Shown piece by piece: positions 15,491 through 36,407 of a DNA stretch of 64,000 nt; the first letter of the stretch is position 1; every line of letters starts with the position of its first letter. The stretch is from Sulfuritalea sp. (GTDB taxonomy: Bacteria; Pseudomonadota; Gammaproteobacteria; Burkholderiales; Rhodocyclaceae). The notes under the pieces were generated by a model, which made no database searches, was not told the DNA's origin, and worked only from the letters and a program-made list of their open reading frames with translations. The DNA lies in contig NZ_JAFLDR010000008.1 in the NCBI RefSeq assembly GCF_017302275.1, positions 1 through 64,000 on the forward strand, in the 5' to 3' direction. A program made the translations under genes and the position numbers.

Positions 15491-16420
15491 ATGATGAAAA
15501 TGCCTCTGATCGCCATGCTGTTGATGGCATGTTCCAGCGCCATTGCCCAGGGCCGCCTGCCGCCCTGTTCGCCGCAAGCGGAGACCGCATGGAGCGGATG
15601 CTCCGGAACGACCGTATCCCCCGCCGGCGAGCGCTATGTCGGCGACTTCTGGAACGGCAGGCGCCATGGCTACGGCAGTTATGCCTGGCCCAACGGTGAC
15701 CGCTACGTGGGCGAATTCGTGAACAACGCACGGCACGGTCAGGGCACGCTGCTTTCCGCCGGTGGCGACAAGTATGTCGGCGAGTTCCGCAACGATGGCA
15801 TCGACGGCAAGGGAACCCTGACCACCGCCGGCGGCGACAAGTACGTCGGCGAATTCAAGGCCGGACGGCGAGATGGCAAAGGCACCCTCACTGCCGCGAA
15901 TGGCGACAGCTACGTCGGTCAGTTCCTCAATGATCTCCCGCAGGGACAGGGAACTTACACCTGGAAGAATGGGGACGTGTACGTCGGGGCATTCCGCGAC
16001 GGCTCGCGCAACGGGCAGGGCAGCCTGAGTTCCGCCGGCGGCGGCAAGTATGTCGGCGGTTTCAGGAACGACAAGTTCGACGGCGAAGGCACGCAGACGG
16101 CAGCCAATGGCGACCGGTATGTCGGTGAATTCAGGAACGACAAGCGCAACGGGAAGGGCAAGCTGACCTGGGCCAACGGCAACGAGTACAACGGCGACTT
16201 CGTGGACGGCCGACTGCAGGGCAAGGGCGTGTTCCTGTCATCCGGCGGCAGCAGGTACGAAGGCGATTTTCAGGATGACAAGTTCCATGGAAGCGGCACC
16301 CTGACGGCCCGCAATGGCACCGTGTTCGTCGGCGAGTTCAAGGATGGGCTGCGCAGCGGACAGGGTACCGAAACCCGCGCCGACGGAACCGTGATCCGCT
16401 CGGGAACCTGGAACGAGTAA
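15491..16420 (+). CDS. Secreted protein with eleven MORN repeats
   Basis: 309 residues. A hydrophobic N terminus (MMKMPLIAMLLMACSSAIA) looks like a signal peptide, probably cleaved after AIA. After a short Cys-containing segment there are eleven consecutive 23-residue MORN repeats of the form YVGEFxNxxxxGxGTxxxxxG, running to the C terminus. MORN repeats build an elongated beta-solenoid-like ribbon used for protein or lipid contact. No enzymatic domain is present. The start could also be the second ATG at 15494. Function unknown; a periplasmic or surface scaffold is inferred. Confidence 0.85.
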   Translation: MMKMPLIAMLLMACSSAIAQGRLPPCSPQAETAWSGCSGTTVSPAGERYVGDFWNGRRHGYGSYAWPNGDRYVGEFVNNARHGQGTLLSAGGDKYVGEFRNDGIDGKGTLTTAGGDKYVGEFKAGRRDGKGTLTAANGDSYVGQFLNDLPQGQGTYTWKNGDVYVGAFRDGSRNGQGSLSSAGGGKYVGGFRNDKFDGEGTQTAANGDRYVGEFRNDKRNGKGKLTWANGNEYNGDFVDGRLQGKGVFLSSGGSRYEGDFQDDKFHGSGTLTARNGTVFVGEFKDGLRSGQGTETRADGTVIRSGTWNE

Positions 16421-27718: not shown

Positions 27719-27908
27719 ACAGCACCGGCGGAGAGGGCCAGTTCCGCAGCCGAACGGGCGAGGCCCAGCCCACCAGCCCGCCAGACCGCCAGACCGCCCG
27801 CCAGCCTACGCCGCAAGCCACCGTGCGGCAAGACAAACAGATGCGTTTAGTCCGTTCGGACTATTGCATCGGGATAATGGTTCGCGCTAGATTTTCCGAA
27901 AAAATCCG

Positions 27909-27924
27909 GCCTGCCAAGGCAGGC
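27909..27924 (+). other. Small hairpin in the leader of the PEP-CTERM gene
   Basis: GCCTGCC-AA-GGCAGGC is a perfect 7-bp inverted repeat about 28 bases before the ATG, just upstream of the ribosome-binding site. It could modulate translation; no riboswitch is recognised. Confidence 0.3.
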
Positions 27925-27951
27925 ACAACACTTAGTGGAGGAGAGACCACC

Positions 27952-28653
27952 ATGAAGACCTGTGGCACTTCGCAGCATTTCGTCGCGCTTGCCGCCGCCT
28001 CATTGGCCCTTTGCGCCCCGGCCGGCGCCGCCATCATCGATGCCTCCGACCACAGCTACCTGAGCGACACCGCAACGGGGCTGGACTGGCTTGACGTCAC
28101 CACCACGGCAGGGATGTCCTTCAACTACGTCAGTTCCCAGTTGGGCGTAGGCGGCCAGTTCGCCGGTTGGCGCTACGCCACCGGGGACGAGTTCAATACG
28201 CTGATTTCCAGCTACTCTGGCGTCGCCATCGGGGCTGGCAACTATGTCCCGGTAGATATGGAGACGGATCGCATCGATGGACTGCTTGGTCTCATGGGCA
28301 GTACACTGGACTACCATTACAGTGTGCTATTTGGCCATTCTTATGACCAACACTGGGGTTATGCCGAAGGCCAGGGGCTGGATTTCAGCTACGGTTTGCT
28401 TGCGGATTCGCATTCCCTTCCGGGATTTCAGTTCCTGGGAATCGTCTACGATAACGACGAAGTACCTGGCGGCGACCTGACCGCAGCCCATGCCACCTAC
28501 TTCCATATTTCTTCGGCGGAGAACCACGTCGGCTCCTTCCTGGTTCGTGATCACGTTGCCGCGCCGATTCCCGAACCCGAGACATACGCCTTGCTGCTCG
28601 CGGGGCTGGGCCTTCTGGGGTTCATCCGCCGCCGCACCGGCAAGAAGGCCTAA
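27952..28653 (+). CDS. Exported PEP-CTERM sorting-signal protein
   Basis: 233 residues from ATG 27952, which follows a GGAGGAGA site. A signal peptide (HFVALAAASLALCAPAGAA, ~10-28) is followed by a beta-rich domain with TGLDWLDVTTTAG and GWRYATGDEFNTL. The C terminus is PIPEPETYALLLAGLGLLG then FIRRR: PEP motif, hydrophobic helix, basic tail. Such proteins are processed by exosortase (EpsH) and usually linked to exopolysaccharide. No exosortase gene is in the window. Upstream readings to 27823 lack a ribosome-binding site. Confidence 0.9.
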   Translation: MKTCGTSQHFVALAAASLALCAPAGAAIIDASDHSYLSDTATGLDWLDVTTTAGMSFNYVSSQLGVGGQFAGWRYATGDEFNTLISSYSGVAIGAGNYVPVDMETDRIDGLLGLMGSTLDYHYSVLFGHSYDQHWGYAEGQGLDFSYGLLADSHSLPGFQFLGIVYDNDEVPGGDLTAAHATYFHISSAENHVGSFLVRDHVAAPIPEPETYALLLAGLGLLGFIRRRTGKKA

Positions 28654-28981: not shown

Positions 28982-29806
28982 ATGCTCGACATCCTCTACC
29001 GCGACGACTATCTCGTCGCGGTGAACAAGCCATCCGGACTGCTGGTGCATCGCAGCGACATCGATCGGCACGAGACGCGCTTTGCGGTGCAGTTGCTGCG
29101 CGACCAGATCGGGCGGCGCGTGTTCCCGCTGCATCGGCTCGACAAGCCGACCTCCGGCGTGCTGCTGTTCGCCTTCGACGCCGAGTGCGCGCGCGAGGTC
29201 GGCGGCCAGTTCGAGCGCGACGAGATCGCCAAGCGCTACCTTGCCGTGGTGCGCGGCTGGCCACCCGACGCCGGTGTGATCGACCATCCGCTGTCGCGCC
29301 AGTTCGACGACTATGGGCGCAAGTTTGTTGCCGGTGCGGGCCCGGAAGCGCAGCCGGCCGTCACCGAGTTCCGGCGACTGGCGACGGTCGAACTGCCCGA
29401 GGCGGTAGACCGCTATCCGGGCGCGCGCTACGCCCTGCTCGAACTGCGGCCCCGGAGCGGACGCCGGCACCAGTTGCGGCGCCACCTGAAGCATGTCGCC
29501 CACCCGATCATCGGCGATGCCAACTGGGGCAAGGGCGTGCACAACCGGTTCTTCCAGCGTCGCTTCGGCTGCCACCGCCTGCTGCTGGCTTGCACGGAAC
29601 TGGTCCTGCGCCATCCCGCGAACGGCGAGCGGCTGACCATTGCTGCCGCGCCCGAAGCCAGCTTTTCCGCCGTGACCGATGCGCTGGGATGGACCGCGGC
29701 GGGAAGCCTGGCGCTGCATTCCGCAATAGTCGGCGCCCCGCAGGGACTTCCTTCGGTCGCTGGCGGAACGGCAATTGTCGGCGGCACGGACGACCCGTCG
29801 GCATAG
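28982..29806 (+). CDS. truC: tRNA pseudouridine-65 synthase TruC
   Basis: 274 residues, RluA-superfamily. N terminus MLDILYRDDYLVAVNKPSGL and catalytic motif HRLDKPTSGVLLFA (catalytic Asp in HRLD, residues ~51-54) match E. coli TruC (YqcB), as do RPRSGRRHQLRRHLKH and HPIIGDANWGKG. It isomerises U65 of tRNA. The last ~35 residues, including IVGAPQGLPSVAGGTA, are an extension encoded by a long-form dispersed repeat at 29729-29774. Confidence 0.85.
   Translation: MLDILYRDDYLVAVNKPSGLLVHRSDIDRHETRFAVQLLRDQIGRRVFPLHRLDKPTSGVLLFAFDAECAREVGGQFERDEIAKRYLAVVRGWPPDAGVIDHPLSRQFDDYGRKFVAGAGPEAQPAVTEFRRLATVELPEAVDRYPGARYALLELRPRSGRRHQLRRHLKHVAHPIIGDANWGKGVHNRFFQRRFGCHRLLLACTELVLRHPANGERLTIAAAPEASFSAVTDALGWTAAGSLALHSAIVGAPQGLPSVAGGTAIVGGTDDPSA
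29729..29774 (+). repeat. Dispersed repeat, long form, in the 3' end of truC
   Basis: It begins AGTCGGCGCC and ends CTGGCGGAACGGC, the ends of the short repeat, with an internal insert containing GGGACTTCC and TTCGGTCG. It matches the inverted copy at 57371-57412 at 35 of 42 aligned positions without gaps. Confidence 0.7.
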
Positions 29807-29909: not shown

Positions 29910-32900
29910 ATGAGCCAGGTACTCAGCAGATCACCCAAGGGACTTCGCGAAGCGACAGGCAAGACCAATACGCTGTCCGAGGAATTGCTGGAAGTGCTCA
30001 AGGCCTGCAAGGGCCAGTTCGAGCCGGAGCAAGTCGCCGCCGCCTGGCCGGAAAAGGATCGCAAAGTTATCGTATGGGCGATCTCCGAACTGGTGGCGCA
30101 AGGCTACCTGCGCGAAGTGGAAATCAGCCGCAGCGCGGCGCCCGCGCCCGGCGCACCGAGCGCACCGAGTGCGCCGGCAGAGGAAGGCTTCGACCTCGAT
30201 TTCAGCGCGGCCGCGCCCAGCTTCGATGCGGCGGCGGACGACACCGCCGCCGAGCAAGCCCGCCGCGACGCTGAAGAAAATGCCAGGCGCGACGCCGAAG
30301 CCCGCGCCCGCCGCGACGCCGAAGAACGGGTGCGACGTGAAACCGAGGAAAGGGTCAGGCGCGAGACCGAGGAGAAAATCCGCCGCGAAACCGAGGAGCG
30401 CATCCGGCGCGAGACCGAGGAGCGGGCACGGCGGGAAGCCGAGGAAAGGAGCCGCCGCGAGGCGGAAGAAAAGCTCAGGCGCGAAGCCGAGGACAATGCC
30501 CGCCACGAGGCGGAAGAACGCATCCGGCGCGAGACGGAAGAAAAGGTCCGTCGCGAAACCGAGGAAAAGCTCCGCCGCGAAGCCGAGGAGCGGCTGAAGC
30601 GCGACGCCGAGGAAAGGGCGCGGCGCGAGGCAACGGAAAAGCAGCGCCGGGAAACGGAAGAAAAGCTCAGGCGCGAAGCCGACGAAAAGGCACGCCACGA
30701 AGCGGAAGAACGGATTCGGCGCGAGACCGAAGAAAAGGTCAGGCGCGAGATCGAAGAAAAAGTGCGGCGCGAAACCGAGGAACGGGCCCACCAGGAAGAG
30801 GAGGCCCGGGCCCGGCGCGAAGCCGAGGAACGCTCGCGCCGCGAGGCCGAGGACAGGATGCGGCGCGAGGCCGAGGAAAGGGCGCGCGTCGAGGCCGAGG
30901 AAAAGATCCGCCGCGAGACCGAAGAAAAGGTGCGGCGCGAGAGCGAGGAAATGCAGCGCAGGCAGGCCGAGGAGCAGGCGCGGCGCTACGCCGAGGAGAG
31001 TGCGCGGCGCGCGGCGGAAGACAAGCAGCGGCGCGAGGCCGCGGAAAAGCAGCTGCGCGATGCGGAGGAAAGGGTCCGCGCCGAGGCGGCGGAACGCGTG
31101 CGGCGCGAAACCGAGGAAAGGCTGCGGCGCGAAGCCGAAGAGAAGGCTCGCCTCGAAGCCGAGGAACAGGCGCGCCGCGAAGCCGAGCTGAAGGCGGCTG
31201 GCACCGACGACATCGCCGAACGCCTGCGCCAGGCGATCGCGGCACGGCGCGGCCAGCGCGACAAGCAGGCGGTGGAATACGTCAGGCAGGGCGAGGAAGA
31301 CGCGCGCCGCCGCGCCGAGGAAAAGGCCCGTCTGGAAGCCGAGGAAAAAGCCCGCGTCGAAGCCGAGGAAAGGGCCCGCCGCGAAGCGGAGGAACAGGCG
31401 CGGCGCGAAGCCGAGGAAAAGGCCCGCATCGAAGCCGAAGCGAAGGCTCGCCGCGAGGCCGAGGAAAGGGCCCGGCGCGAGGCCGAAGAGCAAGCGCGGC
31501 GCGAAGCCGAGGAAAAGGCCCGCAAGGAAGCCGAAGAGAAGGCCCGCATCGAAGCCGAGGAGCAGGCCCGCCGCGATGCGATCGAGAAGGCAAGGCGAGA
31601 CGCCGAGGAAAGGGCACGGCGCGAAGCGGAAGAAAAGCTGCGGCGCGAGACCGAGGAAAGGATACGCATCGCGGCCGAGGAGAAGGCACGGCGCGACGCG
31701 ATCGAGAAGGAAAAGCGCGAAGCCGAGGAGAAGGCCCGCAAGGCGGCCGTCGAAGAGGCCCTGCGCTTCGCGGAGCAGGCGCGCCTCGCGGCCGAGGAAA
31801 AGGCCCGCAAGGAAGCCGAGGAACGCGCCCGCATCGAAGCCGAGGAACGTGCCCGCCTCGAAGCCGAGGAAAAGGCGCGCAAGGAAGCCGAGGAGCGCGC
31901 CCGGCGCAAGGCCGAGGAAAAGGCGCGCAAGGAAGCCGAGGAGCGCGCGCGCCTGGAGGAAGAGGAACGCGAGCGGGAACTCATCAAGGAACGCCTGCGC
32001 CAGCGCGCGGAAAAGGTGAAGAAGCAGTCGCGCATCGCTGCCGCGGTGGTTGCGATCGTGCTGCCCCTGGCCGGCCTGTTCCTGATCAAGTTCATCCCCT
32101 TCGACGGCAAACGGCAGGCCTTCGAGACCTTGGCCAGCGCCGCCCTCGGCGTGCCGGTAAAAGCTGGCAGCGCCCATGTCGAACTGATACCGAAGCCTCT
32201 GCTGACCGTGAGCGATGTCGCCATCGGCGACGACGGCGCGGTAAAGGTTCAGCGCATCGCCCTCGGCGTGCCGTTTTCCGTGCTGTGGCAGACGCCGGCG
32301 GAATTCGAGTCGGCGCACCTCGACCAGGCGCGCGTCCCGGTCGCCGTATTGCTCAAGGCGCTGCATGCAAGCAGCGCGAAGATTCCGATGAAGGCCGGCG
32401 CGCTCACCACCAGCGGGCTGCAGGTCATCGCCGAAGCCAAGCCGCTGCTGCCGCCCATGGACCTCGAGGCACGCTTCCAGGATGGACTGCTGGCACGCAT
32501 CGCCGGCACCGGCCAAAGCGATGATTTCGGCAAGGCCACGCTGGACGCGCAGCGCGGCGCGGGATTCTGGCAGGTGAGCCTCGGCGCGCAGCGCTTCCTG
32601 TTGCCGCTGGGCTTCGATATGCCGCTCAGCGATCTCACGCTTGGCGCGCGACTGACACCCGACAGCCTGAGCTTCACCGATGCCAAGGCCTGGAACTCGG
32701 AAGGCGAACTCACCGCCAGCGGTGCCGTCTCATGGAGCCGTGGCTGGAAGCTGACCGCCAAGGTCAAGGCCAGGCGCGTAAATGTCGCCAAGTTCGCGCC
32801 GAACTGGATGTCCGGCGGCTTCATGGATGGCCAGGCGGATCTTGCCTCGGAAGCGGCGACCGCTGCCGAGCTTTATGCGCGCGGCCGGATGCAAGGCCGC

Positions 32901-33203
32901 GCAACACTCGGCCGCGGCGTGCTGGTCGGCGTCGACCTCGACCGCGTGGTGCAAGGGCGCGGCGTCGGCGACCAGTACACCTTCGAAGCCCTCGAAGGCA
33001 ACGCGCTGCTCGACGCCCGGCGCTACGACTTCACCGACATCCGGCTCAGCGCGGGGGAACTCGCCGCCACCGGCGCGTTCGGCATTGCGCCGGACGGCGC
33101 CGTGCGCGGCAGGTTCGCCGTCGAAGTCAAGGCCGCGCGCATGCGCCTGACCGGCGGCGTCGCCCTTGCCGGCACCGCTGCCAAGCCGCAGTACCAGCGC
33201 TGA
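29910..33203 (+). CDS. Membrane protein with a giant octad-repeat single alpha-helix and an AsmA-like C-terminal domain
   Basis: 1097 residues from ATG 29910 (GGGAG upstream). Layout: ~1-75 a small helical, winged-helix-like domain; 76-120 a Pro/Ala linker; 122-425 38 consecutive eight-residue units of form EE(K/R)ARREA; 426-461 a break (KAAGTDDIAERL); 462-~691 about 28 further units; basic segment; membrane helix ~709-731 (AAAVVAIVLPLAGLFLIKF); ~735-1097 a beta-rich domain resembling AsmA-type repeats (VPVKAGSAHVELIPKPLLTV, AWNSEGELTASGAVSW). In each octad every charged residue has an opposite charge at i+4, as in ER/K single alpha-helices. By the positive-inside rule the repeats are cytoplasmic. 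Function unknown. Confidence 0.85.
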   Translation: MSQVLSRSPKGLREATGKTNTLSEELLEVLKACKGQFEPEQVAAAWPEKDRKVIVWAISELVAQGYLREVEISRSAAPAPGAPSAPSAPAEEGFDLDFSAAAPSFDAAADDTAAEQARRDAEENARRDAEARARRDAEERVRRETEERVRRETEEKIRRETEERIRRETEERARREAEERSRREAEEKLRREAEDNARHEAEERIRRETEEKVRRETEEKLRREAEERLKRDAEERARREATEKQRRETEEKLRREADEKARHEAEERIRRETEEKVRREIEEKVRRETEERAHQEEEARARREAEERSRREAEDRMRREAEERARVEAEEKIRRETEEKVRRESEEMQRRQAEEQARRYAEESARRAAEDKQRREAAEKQLRDAEERVRAEAAERVRRETEERLRREAEEKARLEAEEQARREAELKAAGTDDIAERLRQAIAARRGQRDKQAVEYVRQGEEDARRRAEEKARLEAEEKARVEAEERARREAEEQARREAEEKARIEAEAKARREAEERARREAEEQARREAEEKARKEAEEKARIEAEEQARRDAIEKARRDAEERARREAEEKLRRETEERIRIAAEEKARRDAIEKEKREAEEKARKAAVEEALRFAEQARLAAEEKARKEAEERARIEAEERARLEAEEKARKEAEERARRKAEEKARKEAEERARLEEEERERELIKERLRQRAEKVKKQSRIAAAVVAIVLPLAGLFLIKFIPFDGKRQAFETLASAALGVPVKAGSAHVELIPKPLLTVSDVAIGDDGAVKVQRIALGVPFSVLWQTPAEFESAHLDQARVPVAVLLKALHASSAKIPMKAGALTTSGLQVIAEAKPLLPPMDLEARFQDGLLARIAGTGQSDDFGKATLDAQRGAGFWQVSLGAQRFLLPLGFDMPLSDLTLGARLTPDSLSFTDAKAWNSEGELTASGAVSWSRGWKLTAKVKARRVNVAKFAPNWMSGGFMDGQADLASEAATAAELYARGRMQGRATLGRGVLVGVDLDRVVQGRGVGDQYTFEALEGNALLDARRYDFTDIRLSAGELAATGAFGIAPDGAVRGRFAVEVKAARMRLTGGVALAGTAAKPQYQR
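30273..31984 (+). repeat. Tandem 24-bp coding repeat array (octad repeats)
   Basis: About 66 imperfect 24-bp units in two blocks (30273-31184 and 31293-31984), separated by ~108 bp of non-repeat sequence. Each encodes one EE(K/R)ARREA-like octad. The DNA units vary at synonymous and charged positions, so it is an aged rather than recently expanded array. Confidence 0.9.
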
Positions 33204-33368: not shown

Positions 33369-36300
33369 ATGCGTAGCGAAATCAACTATTTTCTGATGAT
33401 GGTTGCCGCACTTGGCTGCATCGCGGTGCTGGCCGGCCTCGTCAAGGGCGGTGATCTGCTGGGCAAGAACGCCGCCGTCCGCCGCTGGGCCCAGGGCGCC
33501 CTGCTGGCCTGCCTCGGTTTCGCCTTGCTCACCCTGCGCGGCCATGTGCCCGACCTGATCGGAATCGTCGCGGCGGACTTCCTGTTCGTGATCGGTTTTG
33601 CCAGGGCCCATGGCGGGTTCCGCCTCTACTTCGGCGGTCCCGGACCGCGGTGGTGGAGCTTGCCACTGATCGCGGCGGCGGGCGGCGGCCTCCTGTATTT
33701 CACCTATGTCGAAGCAAACCCCGCGGTGCGCCTGGCGATCATCGCGCTCAGCGACAGCGTCATCAGCTGCGGCATCGCCAGCCTGTTGCTGCGCGCGCGG
33801 GCGAAGGGCGCCGTCCCCGGCCCCTATCGCATCCTCATCGCCATTTTCATGACTACCGGCGTACTGGCTCTCGCCGCTGCGGTCACCGCGATCCTGCTGC
33901 CGGCGGGAACCGACGGCGGGCAAGGCCATTCGGTGGTGGCGACGGCCCTGATGGCATCGGTCACCGTGCTGGTGCTGGTCGTCGCGATCATCCTCCCGAT
34001 AGAGATCCTGGCCCGCGCCCGGCATGGCATCGCGACAAGCGAAAACCGCTACCGCAGCATGTTCCACACCAGCCCCGACCCGGTCAGCATCAGTTCGACG
34101 GTCGATGGCCGCATCCTGGACGTCAATGACGCCTTCGAGCAGGCCATCGGCGTGCGGCGCGACGAGATCGTCGGCCGCGGCTGGAATGACCTCGGCATCT
34201 GGGCCGATCCGGGAGATCAGGCGCGCCTGCTGGCGGGCTTGGCCGCGGACGGCTATTGCCGCGACTTCGAAACCCGGCTGCTGTGCCGGAACGGCGAACC
34301 GCTGGACTGCCTGATATCGGCATCCAGGATCGAACTCGATGGCGAGACCTGCCTGCTGTCGATCGCCCGCGATGTCACCGAGCGCAAGCGCGCGGAAGCG
34401 ACCTTGCGCGAACAGGAGGAATTCTTCCGGCTGATCGCGGAGAACATCGGGGACTTCATCGCGGTACTCGACCTCGACGGGCGCCGGATCTACAACAGCC
34501 CTTCCTATCAGCGCTTTTTCGGCGAGACGCGGGACCTGCGCGGCACCGACTCCTTCGCCGACGTTCATCCGGACGATCAGTCACGCGTCCGACAGGCGTT
34601 TCGCGAGACCGTCCGCACCGGCATCGGGCAGGAACTCGAGTATCGGTTCCTCAAGGCCGACGGCAGCGTTCGCGAGATGGAATCACGCGGCTTCGCGATC
34701 AGGGACGGCAGCGGCCGCGTCGCGCGTATCGTCGTCGTCGCGCGCGACATCACCGAGCGCAAGGAACAGGAAAGCCGAATCGTCGAATTGATGCAGGAAC
34801 AGCGCCTGATTTTCGACAACGCCCACGTCGGCATCCTGCTCCTGCGCAACCGCCAAATCCTCAAGTGCAACCAGCGCATCGCGGACATGTTCGGCTTCGC
34901 CAGTCCGCACGACGTCATCGGCAAGACCACGGAAGTGTTCTATGGCTCGACGGAACAGTTCTTGTCCTGCGGTCGGGAAGGTTATGCACAACTGGCGAAG
35001 CAGGGATATGCCAATTTCGAGACCGAGATGCGCCATCAGGACGGCAGCCTCATCTGGGTGATCCAGACCGGGCGCCCGCTCGACCCGAATTCGGTTCTGG
35101 AGGCTCCCTCGATCTGGGTCTACACCGACATCACGGCACGCAAGCGCGCCGAAGCCGAACTCGAACAGCACCGCCACCACCTCAAGGAACTGGTCTATTC
35201 GCGCACCGCCGAACTGGCCGAGGCGCGCGACGCCGCGGAAGCTGCGAACCGTGCAAAGAGCGTGTTCCTGGCCAACATGAGCCACGAACTGCGCACGCCG
35301 ATGAACGGCATCATGGGCATGACCAGCCTGGCGCTGCGCAGCGCGACCGACCCGACACAGATCCGCTGGCTGAAAAAGGGTCTGAACGCCGCCCAGCACC
35401 TGCTCGACGTCATCAACGACATCCTCGACATCTCGCAAATCGAAGCCCAGCGCCTGACGTTGGAAGAACACAACTTCTCCCTTGCGCAACTGGTGCGCGA
35501 CACCCTCGAACTGCAGCAGGTGCCGGCCCAGGCCAAGGATCTGGTCCTCGCATCGGAAATCGACCCGGGCTTGCCCGAGCGGCTCTGCGGCGACCCCACC
35601 CGCCTCAAGCAGATCCTGCTCAATTTCGTCGGCAATGCCGTCAAGTTCTCGGAACACGGCCAGATCACCCTGCGCGCCCGCGCCGTCGAAGACGACAGCC
35701 TTGGCGTCTTGCTGCGCATCGAAGTGCACGACCAGGGAATCGGTATCAGCCCGGAGCAGCAGACCCGCCTGTTCCTTCCCTTTGTCCAGGCCGACGACTC
35801 GATGACCCGCAGATATGGGGGAAGCGGACTTGGCCTCGCCATTTCCAGGCGCATCGCCAACCTGATGGGCGGCGAAGTCGGCGTGACCAGCGAGGCCGGC
35901 CGCGGCAGTTGCTTCTGGGTAACGGTGCGCCTGCGGCATGCCCGCGCCGACAAGGCGGCAGACGACGCCGCCGAAGATGCTTCCGCGCGCGCGCTGCTGG
36001 CCAGGGAATTCGCCGGGACCCGAATCCTGATCGCCGAAGACGAGCCGGTGAATCGCGAAGTGGAAGTGGGCCTGCTCGCCGACGTCGGCCTGGTGGTCGA
36101 CGTTGCGCACAACGGCGAGGAGGCCGTGCGAAAAGCCAGGGACGGGCGCTACGCGCTGATCCTGATGGACGTGCAGATGCCGGTCATGAACGGCCTCGAC
36201 GCCACGCGCGCGATTCGGCGCTTGCCGGGGATGTCCTCCGCGGTCCCCATCCTGGCATTGACCGCCAACGCCTTTGACAGTGATCGCGAGGCCTGCCTCG

Positions 36301-36407
36301 CCGCCGGAATGGACGACCACATCGCCAAGCCGGTAACCCCGGATGAGCTGCATGCGATGGTTCTGCATTGGTTGCGGCAGGCCGCGACGGCAGTTCGCCG
36401 TCCCTAG
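33369..36407 (+). CDS. Hybrid sensor histidine kinase (seven-helix N terminus, PAS domains, receiver)
   Basis: 1012 residues. Residues 1-~215 have about seven membrane helices, then three PAS segments (~220-610, e.g. SENRYRSMFHTSPDPV). HisKA: ANMSHELRTPMNG with phospho-acceptor H639. The ATPase has a GGSGLGLAISRRI G-box. A C-terminal receiver has LILMDVQMPVMNG with D934. It should autophosphorylate and pass phosphate to its own receiver, then to an Hpt or response regulator not in this window. It resembles the kinase at 49741 and shares the ELEQHRHHL linker before the histidine domain. Ligand unknown. Confidence 0.92.
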   Translation: MRSEINYFLMMVAALGCIAVLAGLVKGGDLLGKNAAVRRWAQGALLACLGFALLTLRGHVPDLIGIVAADFLFVIGFARAHGGFRLYFGGPGPRWWSLPLIAAAGGGLLYFTYVEANPAVRLAIIALSDSVISCGIASLLLRARAKGAVPGPYRILIAIFMTTGVLALAAAVTAILLPAGTDGGQGHSVVATALMASVTVLVLVVAIILPIEILARARHGIATSENRYRSMFHTSPDPVSISSTVDGRILDVNDAFEQAIGVRRDEIVGRGWNDLGIWADPGDQARLLAGLAADGYCRDFETRLLCRNGEPLDCLISASRIELDGETCLLSIARDVTERKRAEATLREQEEFFRLIAENIGDFIAVLDLDGRRIYNSPSYQRFFGETRDLRGTDSFADVHPDDQSRVRQAFRETVRTGIGQELEYRFLKADGSVREMESRGFAIRDGSGRVARIVVVARDITERKEQESRIVELMQEQRLIFDNAHVGILLLRNRQILKCNQRIADMFGFASPHDVIGKTTEVFYGSTEQFLSCGREGYAQLAKQGYANFETEMRHQDGSLIWVIQTGRPLDPNSVLEAPSIWVYTDITARKRAEAELEQHRHHLKELVYSRTAELAEARDAAEAANRAKSVFLANMSHELRTPMNGIMGMTSLALRSATDPTQIRWLKKGLNAAQHLLDVINDILDISQIEAQRLTLEEHNFSLAQLVRDTLELQQVPAQAKDLVLASEIDPGLPERLCGDPTRLKQILLNFVGNAVKFSEHGQITLRARAVEDDSLGVLLRIEVHDQGIGISPEQQTRLFLPFVQADDSMTRRYGGSGLGLAISRRIANLMGGEVGVTSEAGRGSCFWVTVRLRHARADKAADDAAEDASARALLAREFAGTRILIAEDEPVNREVEVGLLADVGLVVDVAHNGEEAVRKARDGRYALILMDVQMPVMNGLDATRAIRRLPGMSSAVPILALTANAFDSDREACLAAGMDDHIAKPVTPDELHAMVLHWLRQAATAVRRP

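Follow-up and report, generated by a model that had tools for sequence, protein, structure and literature searches.

Organization of the arm gene

The window, that is, the whole stretch of DNA that was analyzed, comprises 64,000 nucleotides from Sulfuritalea sp. (contig NZ_JAFLDR010000008.1, positions 1 to 64,000 of the forward strand). It contains a gene, hereafter the arm gene, with a stop-free translation of 1097 amino acids (aa) in which a winged-helix-like head and two long arms of eight-residue repeats precede a membrane helix and an AsmA-like tail (Table 1). The start at 29910 agrees with the relatives of the protein, whose heads begin at the same point; the frame stays open 5′ of it, with an alternative TTG at 29775. 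In this form, the head has one copy in the genome, and a search of the same genome with a tail profile returned the arm gene and two weaker AsmA/TamB-type genes.

Table 1. Parts of the arm gene, with positions in the window and the evidence for each.
Feature	Residues	Positions	Strand	Description and evidence
Whole gene: head, DLDFS motif, arm 1, break motif, arm 2, membrane helix, AsmA-like tail	1–1097	29910..33203	+	1097 aa, single copy in own genome
Winged-helix head	1–73	29910..30128	+	Consensus about TKTxKGxxE...LSxDLRxVLxxxDGxS...L..GYIRE; relatives, AF2 model, structural matches, MarR/PqqD profile matches
DLDFS short linear motif	95–99	30192..30206	+	Low-confidence linker between head and arm; relatives (by eye), long-linker association, receiver-domain proteins
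Arm 1, 39 octads	115–426	30252..31187	+	Consensus E[RK][AVIL]RRE[AT]E; charge pairing, period analysis, codons, AF2 helix
Break motif	427–461	31188..31292	+	About D(D/E).A(A/E)(K/R)LR(A/Q)..A.RRGQRD; same motif in 9 relatives
Arm 2, ~29 octads	462–692	31293..31985	+	Charge pairing, period analysis, octad-stepped break-to-tail distance
Membrane helix	711–729	32040..32096	+	N-terminal side basic; hydrophobicity and charge bias, AF2 pLDDT ~45–50
AsmA/TamB-type beta domain, predicted periplasmic	730–1097	32097..33200	+	Pfam AsmA, PDB TamB by profile, AF2 model, fold matches

Scans against Pfam and NCBIfam gave no model for the head or for the whole arrangement. The whole protein also hit Fibrinogen_BP in Pfam (E = 8.4e-7; 28.1 bits, cut-off 50), which we disregarded as an effect of low complexity in the arm. 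In the open-licence literature, we found no AsmA protein with a winged helix or a single alpha-helix. The statement in the original prediction, made from the sequence of this stretch, that no described family was known to have this arrangement fits these literature searches, but the protein is not unique to its genome. Of the 12 closest named loci, 5 come from Sulfuritalea metagenome-assembled genomes (MAGs), 4 from uncultured betaproteobacteria, and 3 from Rhodocyclales MAGs, which places the window among these bacteria. The arm gene is a real gene that encodes an AsmA-superfamily variant, part of a widespread family for which these searches gave no model or description.

Charge pairing and helical state of the arms

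Arm 1 consists of 312 residues in 39 octads with no insertion or deletion. The anatomy agrees with the original prediction apart from small counts (38 and ~28 units were given there). Of the 39 units, 37 have an acidic residue at octad position 1 and 37 have Arg or Lys at position 4; Arg occupies position 5 in 33, and positions 6 and 8 each carry an acidic residue in 36. There are 193 favorable and no unfavorable i,i+4 charge pairs in arm 1 (67 and 60 at i+3), and charges are anticorrelated at lag 4 (autocorrelation, −0.91) and positively correlated at lag 8 (+0.89). For arm 2, counted over residues 462 to 698, the corresponding numbers are 124 and 8 (52 and 37 at i+3), and there is a single register slip near VEEALRFAEQARLAAE. 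Pairing across every unit boundary, as had been proposed, thus holds for arm 1 only, because arm 2 has unfavorable pairs and the register slip. Over residues 112 to 705, 324 favorable and 11 unfavorable i,i+4 pairs were counted, an excess that is 20.8 standard deviations above that in shuffled sequences of identical composition. This is the pattern of single alpha-helix (SAH) domains, in which opposite charges are paired at i,i+4 and hydrophobic seams are few; at i+3, the pairing is only weakly favorable.

Long helices rich in Glu, Lys, Arg, and Ala are often given the label of coiled coils, and the arms could form dimeric or higher-order rods that make the protein a dimeric spacer. Ala, Val, Leu, Ile, or Thr at octad positions 3 and 7 do form a continuous weak stripe, and some relatives have better heptad stretches (windows at a/d occupancy ≥0.5: L063, 0.21; L079, 0.12; L021, 0.10). 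The period analysis of the protein studied here points the other way: arm 1 has strong power at 4 and 8 residues, and there is none at 3.5 or 3.67 residues in either arm. With strong hydrophobics counted, the best a/d occupancy averaged 0.18 in arm 1 and 0.17 in arm 2 (maximum, 0.38), so that no 28-residue segment of either arm reached 0.5 and a heptad core is absent. RmuC is a coiled coil, and its stretches, used as a control (2 of 9 sequences), averaged 0.55. Moreover, two straight helices should not stay in register because the 4-4 spacing drifts round the helix. We therefore consider coiled-coil rods improbable, and the single-helix design without a heptad core that was originally proposed is supported.

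Structure prediction is consistent with continuous helices. In the AlphaFold2 (AF2) model of the head, residues 108 to 173 form one helix, with a predicted local distance difference test (pLDDT) score of 96 to 98 over most of the ~60 arm residues. In the tail model, residues 2 to 67 form one helix (pLDDT of 83 to 92 over the first 40), and pLDDT drops to 45 to 62 around the membrane helix. Together with the charge pattern, these models suggest a single-helix state for the arms.

At 0.15 nm per residue, contour lengths are ~47 nm for arm 1 and ~35 nm for arm 2, with a total of 81.5 nm. SAH domains have a persistence length of 15 to 20 nm; when this range is assumed, the root mean square (rms) end-to-end distance is ~45 to 50 nm. 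The predicted ~80-nm helix is thus sound as contour arithmetic and too long as a rigid reach. Because the 81.5-nm contour spans ~45 nm rms at a persistence length of 15 nm, the arms would make a leash, not a rod.

Same-residue codon identity between neighboring units was 0.54 in arm 1 (expected, 0.47) and 0.57 in arm 2 (expected, 0.51), and GAA and GAG were about equally used. The protein pattern is retained while synonymous sites are nearly randomized. Since codon choice in neighboring units comes close to random variation, a recent DNA duplication of the whole array is ruled out. In arm 1, codon identity rose to 0.58 to 0.61 at lags 64 and 128; a 192-bp higher-order repeat fits this mild excess, and some duplication of 8-unit blocks must therefore have occurred.

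Membrane topology and the AsmA-type tail

One membrane helix followed by an AsmA-like domain had been predicted, and both were recovered. The tail matches Pfam AsmA (PF05170) at 29.7 bits (E = 3.9e-7), just missing the curated cut-off of 29.8, and 28 of 34 family members match the same model at E ≤ 0.01. By sequence, homology of the tail to the AsmA superfamily (AsmA, TamB, YhdP, and YdbH) is clear. The positive-inside charge bias places the head and arms in the cytoplasm in 37 of 37 proteins examined, in agreement with the cytoplasmic arm originally proposed; in this predicted topology, the beta-rich domain follows the membrane helix outside the inner membrane, as in the superfamily. TamB has a single N-terminal membrane-helix anchor, and the same is predicted for AsmA (in a passage of PMC6791001). 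The protein described here differs in having ~700 residues of head and leash ahead of the membrane helix, and its tail is ~370 aa long. By analogy with the superfamily, the tail would have a periplasmic, lipid-related role. No tail matches on plasmids were found.

A long helical arm rich in Glu, Lys, and Ala and joined to an inner-membrane helix is also a property of TolA. TolA has an N-terminal membrane helix, then a periplasmic arm, and then the TolA C-terminal domain; in contrast, the arm of the Sulfuritalea protein precedes the membrane helix and is predicted to be cytoplasmic. This topology rules out identity with TolA, and Pfam and NCBIfam scans of the protein gave no TolA match. Neither outcome that the original prediction named as speaking against it, an ordinary TolA or a coiled coil throughout, was encountered in these sequence-level analyses.

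The head and the DLDF(S/T) motif

The AF2 model of the head (mean pLDDT of 81, 8 sequences) comprises a strand, helices, and a final strand. Structural matches were winged helices and related small domains, with scores that are all middling by the tool’s own scale: TigE (7.3), PriA (7.2), methionine aminopeptidase and a GATOR1 subunit (7.0 each), MccB (6.9), NisB (6.8), and TbtB (6.6). Profile comparison gave 93.5% for MarR and 88% for PqqD, with 24% for MarR against PqqD; the comparison started from 27 MarR loci and from 22 of 31 PqqD matches in the list, of which 25 and 18, respectively, passed a length filter. Foldseek with the head gave no match below E = 0.79, and we therefore use the head at the fold-class level alone. 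At that level, the winged-helix-like head that had been suggested is supported by both the model and the profile matches.

A winged helix on a membrane protein may indicate a ToxR/CadC-type membrane-tethered DNA-binder, whose head would sit on DNA at the end of a helix reaching into the nucleoid while the periplasmic domain senses the envelope. The MarR profile match, a match to the MarR/HxlR-type chain 1yyv (E = 0.0034), and a leash long enough to suit DNA access agree with such a protein. However, the head shares with MarR-like factors the predicted fold and not the basic recognition helix: in a profile of 54 heads this helix is net acidic with no conserved basic positions, unlike the 25 MarR domains. 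The conserved basic residues of the head are located in the N-terminal strand (TKTxKG), in the DGK turn, and after GYI, so that a nonclassical nucleic-acid contact could be made. The head also occurs on proteins of other kinds. By eye, it lies N-terminal to receiver domains in 11 proteins among 20 other loci and a paralogue from the same genome; a Pfam scan of 10 head proteins gave a receiver match in 5, one of them below the cut-off. Other partners are TonB-C, a cNMP-binding domain, and YcaO (weak head match, 16.7 bits), and the head is also found in small proteins. The partner domains are not a fair sample because these loci, mostly mid-sized frames, were chosen by hand from the head-profile matches. 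Given the acidic recognition helix and the fusions to response-regulator receivers in other proteins, a protein is a more probable ligand of the head than DNA, and a tethered DNA-binder appears quite unlikely.

Receiver-fused heads were seen at L264, L265, L266, L269, L270, L273, L276, L279, L280, and L282, several of them in one genome (G133), and L278 and L274 look by eye like further proteins with a head and a charged arm. On another contig of the Sulfuritalea genome (C23), there is a second head protein of 168 aa (L203 2329–2829, the same as L087 1486–1992), located between genes that by eye encode GroEL and a response regulator; its C-terminal part matched no Pfam family at E ≤ 0.001.

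Of 29 long-linker proteins, 19 have a DLDF(S/T)-type motif after the head, compared with none of 6 short-linker ones. It was also observed after the head in four receiver fusions (L282, L273, L269, and L276), in some as DLDFT. We read the head and the motif together as a putative docking unit.

Linker length varies across the family

Among 61 genomes, the tail sequence matched in 41 and the head sequence in 11, with the Sulfuritalea genome counted in both. We extracted 45 open reading frames (ORFs): one (L052) was cut by a contig end, seven were armless AsmA-like frames of 445 to 488 aa, and 37 had a membrane helix beyond residue 100. Two linkers of the 37 (L083 and L084) were too short to measure and two (L080 and L082) lacked the pattern, leaving an i+4 excess (z ≥ 3.4) in 33 of 35 measurable linkers. 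These 33 span 135 to 1138 aa, and the best self-match period was 8 or 16 in 30 of them. Arms were delimited by a charge threshold, which favors charged sequence; start codons of relatives were picked mechanically (the N terminus of L055 is doubtful); and many relatives are metagenome assemblies, in which repeats may be collapsed.

We then sampled the order evenly with 150 genomes, of which 74 matched the head profile and 83 the tail profile (E ≤ 1e-10, a threshold that takes in other AsmA-type proteins as well). Head and tail were in one frame at 35 of 40 loci pulled from this sample, with linkers of 23 to 1034 aa. Linkers of at least 250 aa were present in 29 of the 35; 26 were charge-patterned (z ≥ 4.5) and 3, all of one genus, were weakly so (z of 2.7 to 3.5). 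The six proteins with linkers shorter than 100 aa had no charge pattern. Five loci without a detected head had long patterned linkers, some cut by contig ends. When eight genomes fetched earlier are included (those of the window, L020, L021, L069, L070, L071, L078, and L085), a head, a long linker, and a tail occur together in at least 37 of the 150 genomes, with a clear charge pattern in 34. In an even class sample of 185 genomes, nearly all outside the order, heads were detected in 14 (E ≤ 1e-6, own genome included) and, except for that of the arm gene, in no frame longer than 340 aa; the long-arm form therefore appears confined to the order in these samples. The longest linkers (L078 in G041, L162 in G176, and L165 in G091, genus g12) are charge-paired over 1018 to 1138 aa, which, if helical, corresponds to a contour of ~150 to 170 nm.

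The “short break” originally noted between the arms is present but is not a mere gap, since its motif is conserved in nine relatives (L013, L014, L016, L017, L018, L053, L054, L055, and L056). In the four relatives without a detected head, it lies near the N terminus, and in five proteins of a second clade (L058, L062, L063, L064, and L067) the head is followed by a related element, LR.KI.A(R/K)R. A model built from 15 seeds gave one independent match, L268, at 6.7e-4; the scores of the seeds are by construction because the seeds were chosen by pattern. L268 (482–1276, minus strand) resembles by eye a protein made of a head and a membrane helix: its head is followed by a break-like motif (RIRADIAARRAQRERQD) and, at the C terminus, by a hydrophobic stretch, with no AsmA tail. 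Given L268, the break motif may be a module of its own.

The distance from the break motif to a fixed tail residue is 193 in five proteins, 233, 313, and 321 (in the window) in one each, and 353 in two. In all 10 related proteins, with five distinct lengths, it equals 1 modulo 8, so that arm 2 changes by whole octads; the head-to-break distance followed no octad rule. L014, L016, and L017 have tails that are 91 to 92% identical and break-to-tail distances of 353, 233, and 353, a 120-residue difference in arm 2. Slippage of the 24-bp unit or selection on helical phase could each produce such steps.

The original prediction regarded the arms as a ruler and proposed conservation of repeat number as a check. 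The number varies freely among relatives, and the ruler is not supported: linkers of 23 to more than 1000 aa and near-identical tails with arms 120 aa apart speak against a fixed length. With the helix design retained in relatives and its length free to change, a leash fits better than a ruler. The same variability could mean that the arm is a tolerated tandem-repeat expansion with no spacer function, a harmless soluble helix on a protein in which the AsmA tail alone matters. Slippage of 24-bp units would also give octad-sized changes, and the seven armless frames come from the same relatives. However, the charge pattern is kept over nearly randomized synonymous codons and persists in many families of the order, where a neutral repeat would be expected to decay, and the DLDF motif accompanies long linkers. 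We regard a tolerated expansion as very improbable.

Genomic neighborhood

At 10 of 30 armed loci, genes for DUF350, SPFH-SHOCT, DUF4178, and membrane spermidine-synthase-like proteins are located downstream on the same strand. Eight of these loci show all four (in L053, the spermidine-synthase-like gene is partial), and contig ends cut off the rest of the module in L013 and L015. The module is directly downstream in 8 of the 10; in L014 and L018, a 1.3- to 2.7-kb gap lies ahead of DUF350. A survey of the phage shock protein (PSP) system describes operons of PspA with DUF350, DUF4178, and a 7TM-spermidine synthase and proposes membrane-associated assembly roles, and its main text does not contain the word “AsmA” (PMC11237479). 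The relatives’ module differs from these operons in containing an SPFH-SHOCT protein. The arm could thus be an inner-face scaffold dedicated to this PspA-related module. This is unlikely, given that the 10 linked loci are all close relatives, 20 of 30 loci and the window lack the linkage, and a second Sulfuritalea clade has other neighbors (RmuC- and FeoB-like by eye). The arm gene is unlinked to the four-gene module, although no search was aimed at PspA linkage itself; in its own genome the module sits on another contig (C33, L202 5298–11027), lacks an arm gene, and is 84 to 93% identical to that of L054. Near the C33 module, on the other strand, we noted by eye an acyl-CoA-dehydrogenase-like gene; one likewise lies between the arm gene and DUF350 in L018.

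The neighbors of the arm gene are a pseudouridine synthase gene upstream, which forms no cluster with other loci, and downstream, at 33369–36407, a PAS/histidine-kinase/receiver hybrid, which fell into a broad two-component cluster only; clustering used rough ORF picking that also yielded antisense false ORFs. Two-component genes adjoin the arm gene by eye in L071 (11078–13869) and L020 (5269–6462), perhaps by chance, as such genes are common. A scan for sigma-70 promoter-like sites found none, and terminator-like sites numbered 9, versus 6.8 ± 2.5 in shuffles. Elsewhere on the plus strand of the window, a gene at 15500–16417 encodes eight MORN repeats by Pfam, with 69-bp repeats in the DNA, and one at 27823–28653, upstream of the pseudouridine synthase and arm genes, encodes a protein with a PEP-CTERM sorting signal.

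A proposed cytoplasmic leash on an AsmA module

At the level of sequence and prediction, the arm gene encodes a winged-helix head, a long i,i+4 charge-paired stretch, one membrane helix, and an AsmA/TamB-like beta domain. We give about even weight to the reading that this is an inner-membrane AsmA-superfamily protein with a cytoplasmic leash, through which a partner recruits or regulates the AsmA module. On the periplasmic side, the tail would act on lipids or in envelope assembly, which is what AsmA-superfamily proteins are thought to do. The arms would be stable, semiflexible, monomeric single alpha-helices, and the head with its DLDF(S/T) motif would dock on a cytoplasmic protein; this partner could then bring in, place, or switch the AsmA module across tens of nanometers. 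The leash may have been selected just for being long, straight, and nonsticky, with the length of arm 2 drifting by whole octads.

SAH (also ER/K or charged SAH, CSAH) domains such as those of INCENP and myosin 10 are likewise rich in Glu, Lys, and Arg, with opposite charges at i,i+4 and few hydrophobics, and serve as a leash or spacer (parts of PMC5812594 and PMC4571873). Arm 1 differs in being a strict octad array of 39 units with Ala, Thr, or an aliphatic residue at two positions, and in lying beside a bacterial membrane anchor; its monomeric state is a prediction. For INCENP, the single helix has been proposed to serve as a leash reaching ~80 nm at most (a section of PMC4571873), and it is the nearest precedent for the physical idea.

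More tentatively, a single-helix leash could be the means by which an unnamed family within one order couples cytoplasmic signaling to lipid transfer by an AsmA module, with the head-DLDF(S/T) unit used on receiver proteins as well. As the length between the break motif and the membrane anchor changes only in whole octads, the two would keep a fixed helical phase.

The leading candidates for phospholipid transport to the outer membrane include AsmA-superfamily proteins. What determines their polar localization at the molecular level is described, in a passage of PMC12977461, as still to be investigated. If a natural family does suspend an AsmA module from a cytoplasmic single-helix leash that bears a docking head, it would offer a way to study how AsmA proteins are placed and controlled. 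It would also supply natural bacterial candidates for single helices, graded in length between about a hundred and more than 1000 residues, which would be material for studies of helix mechanics and for protein design.

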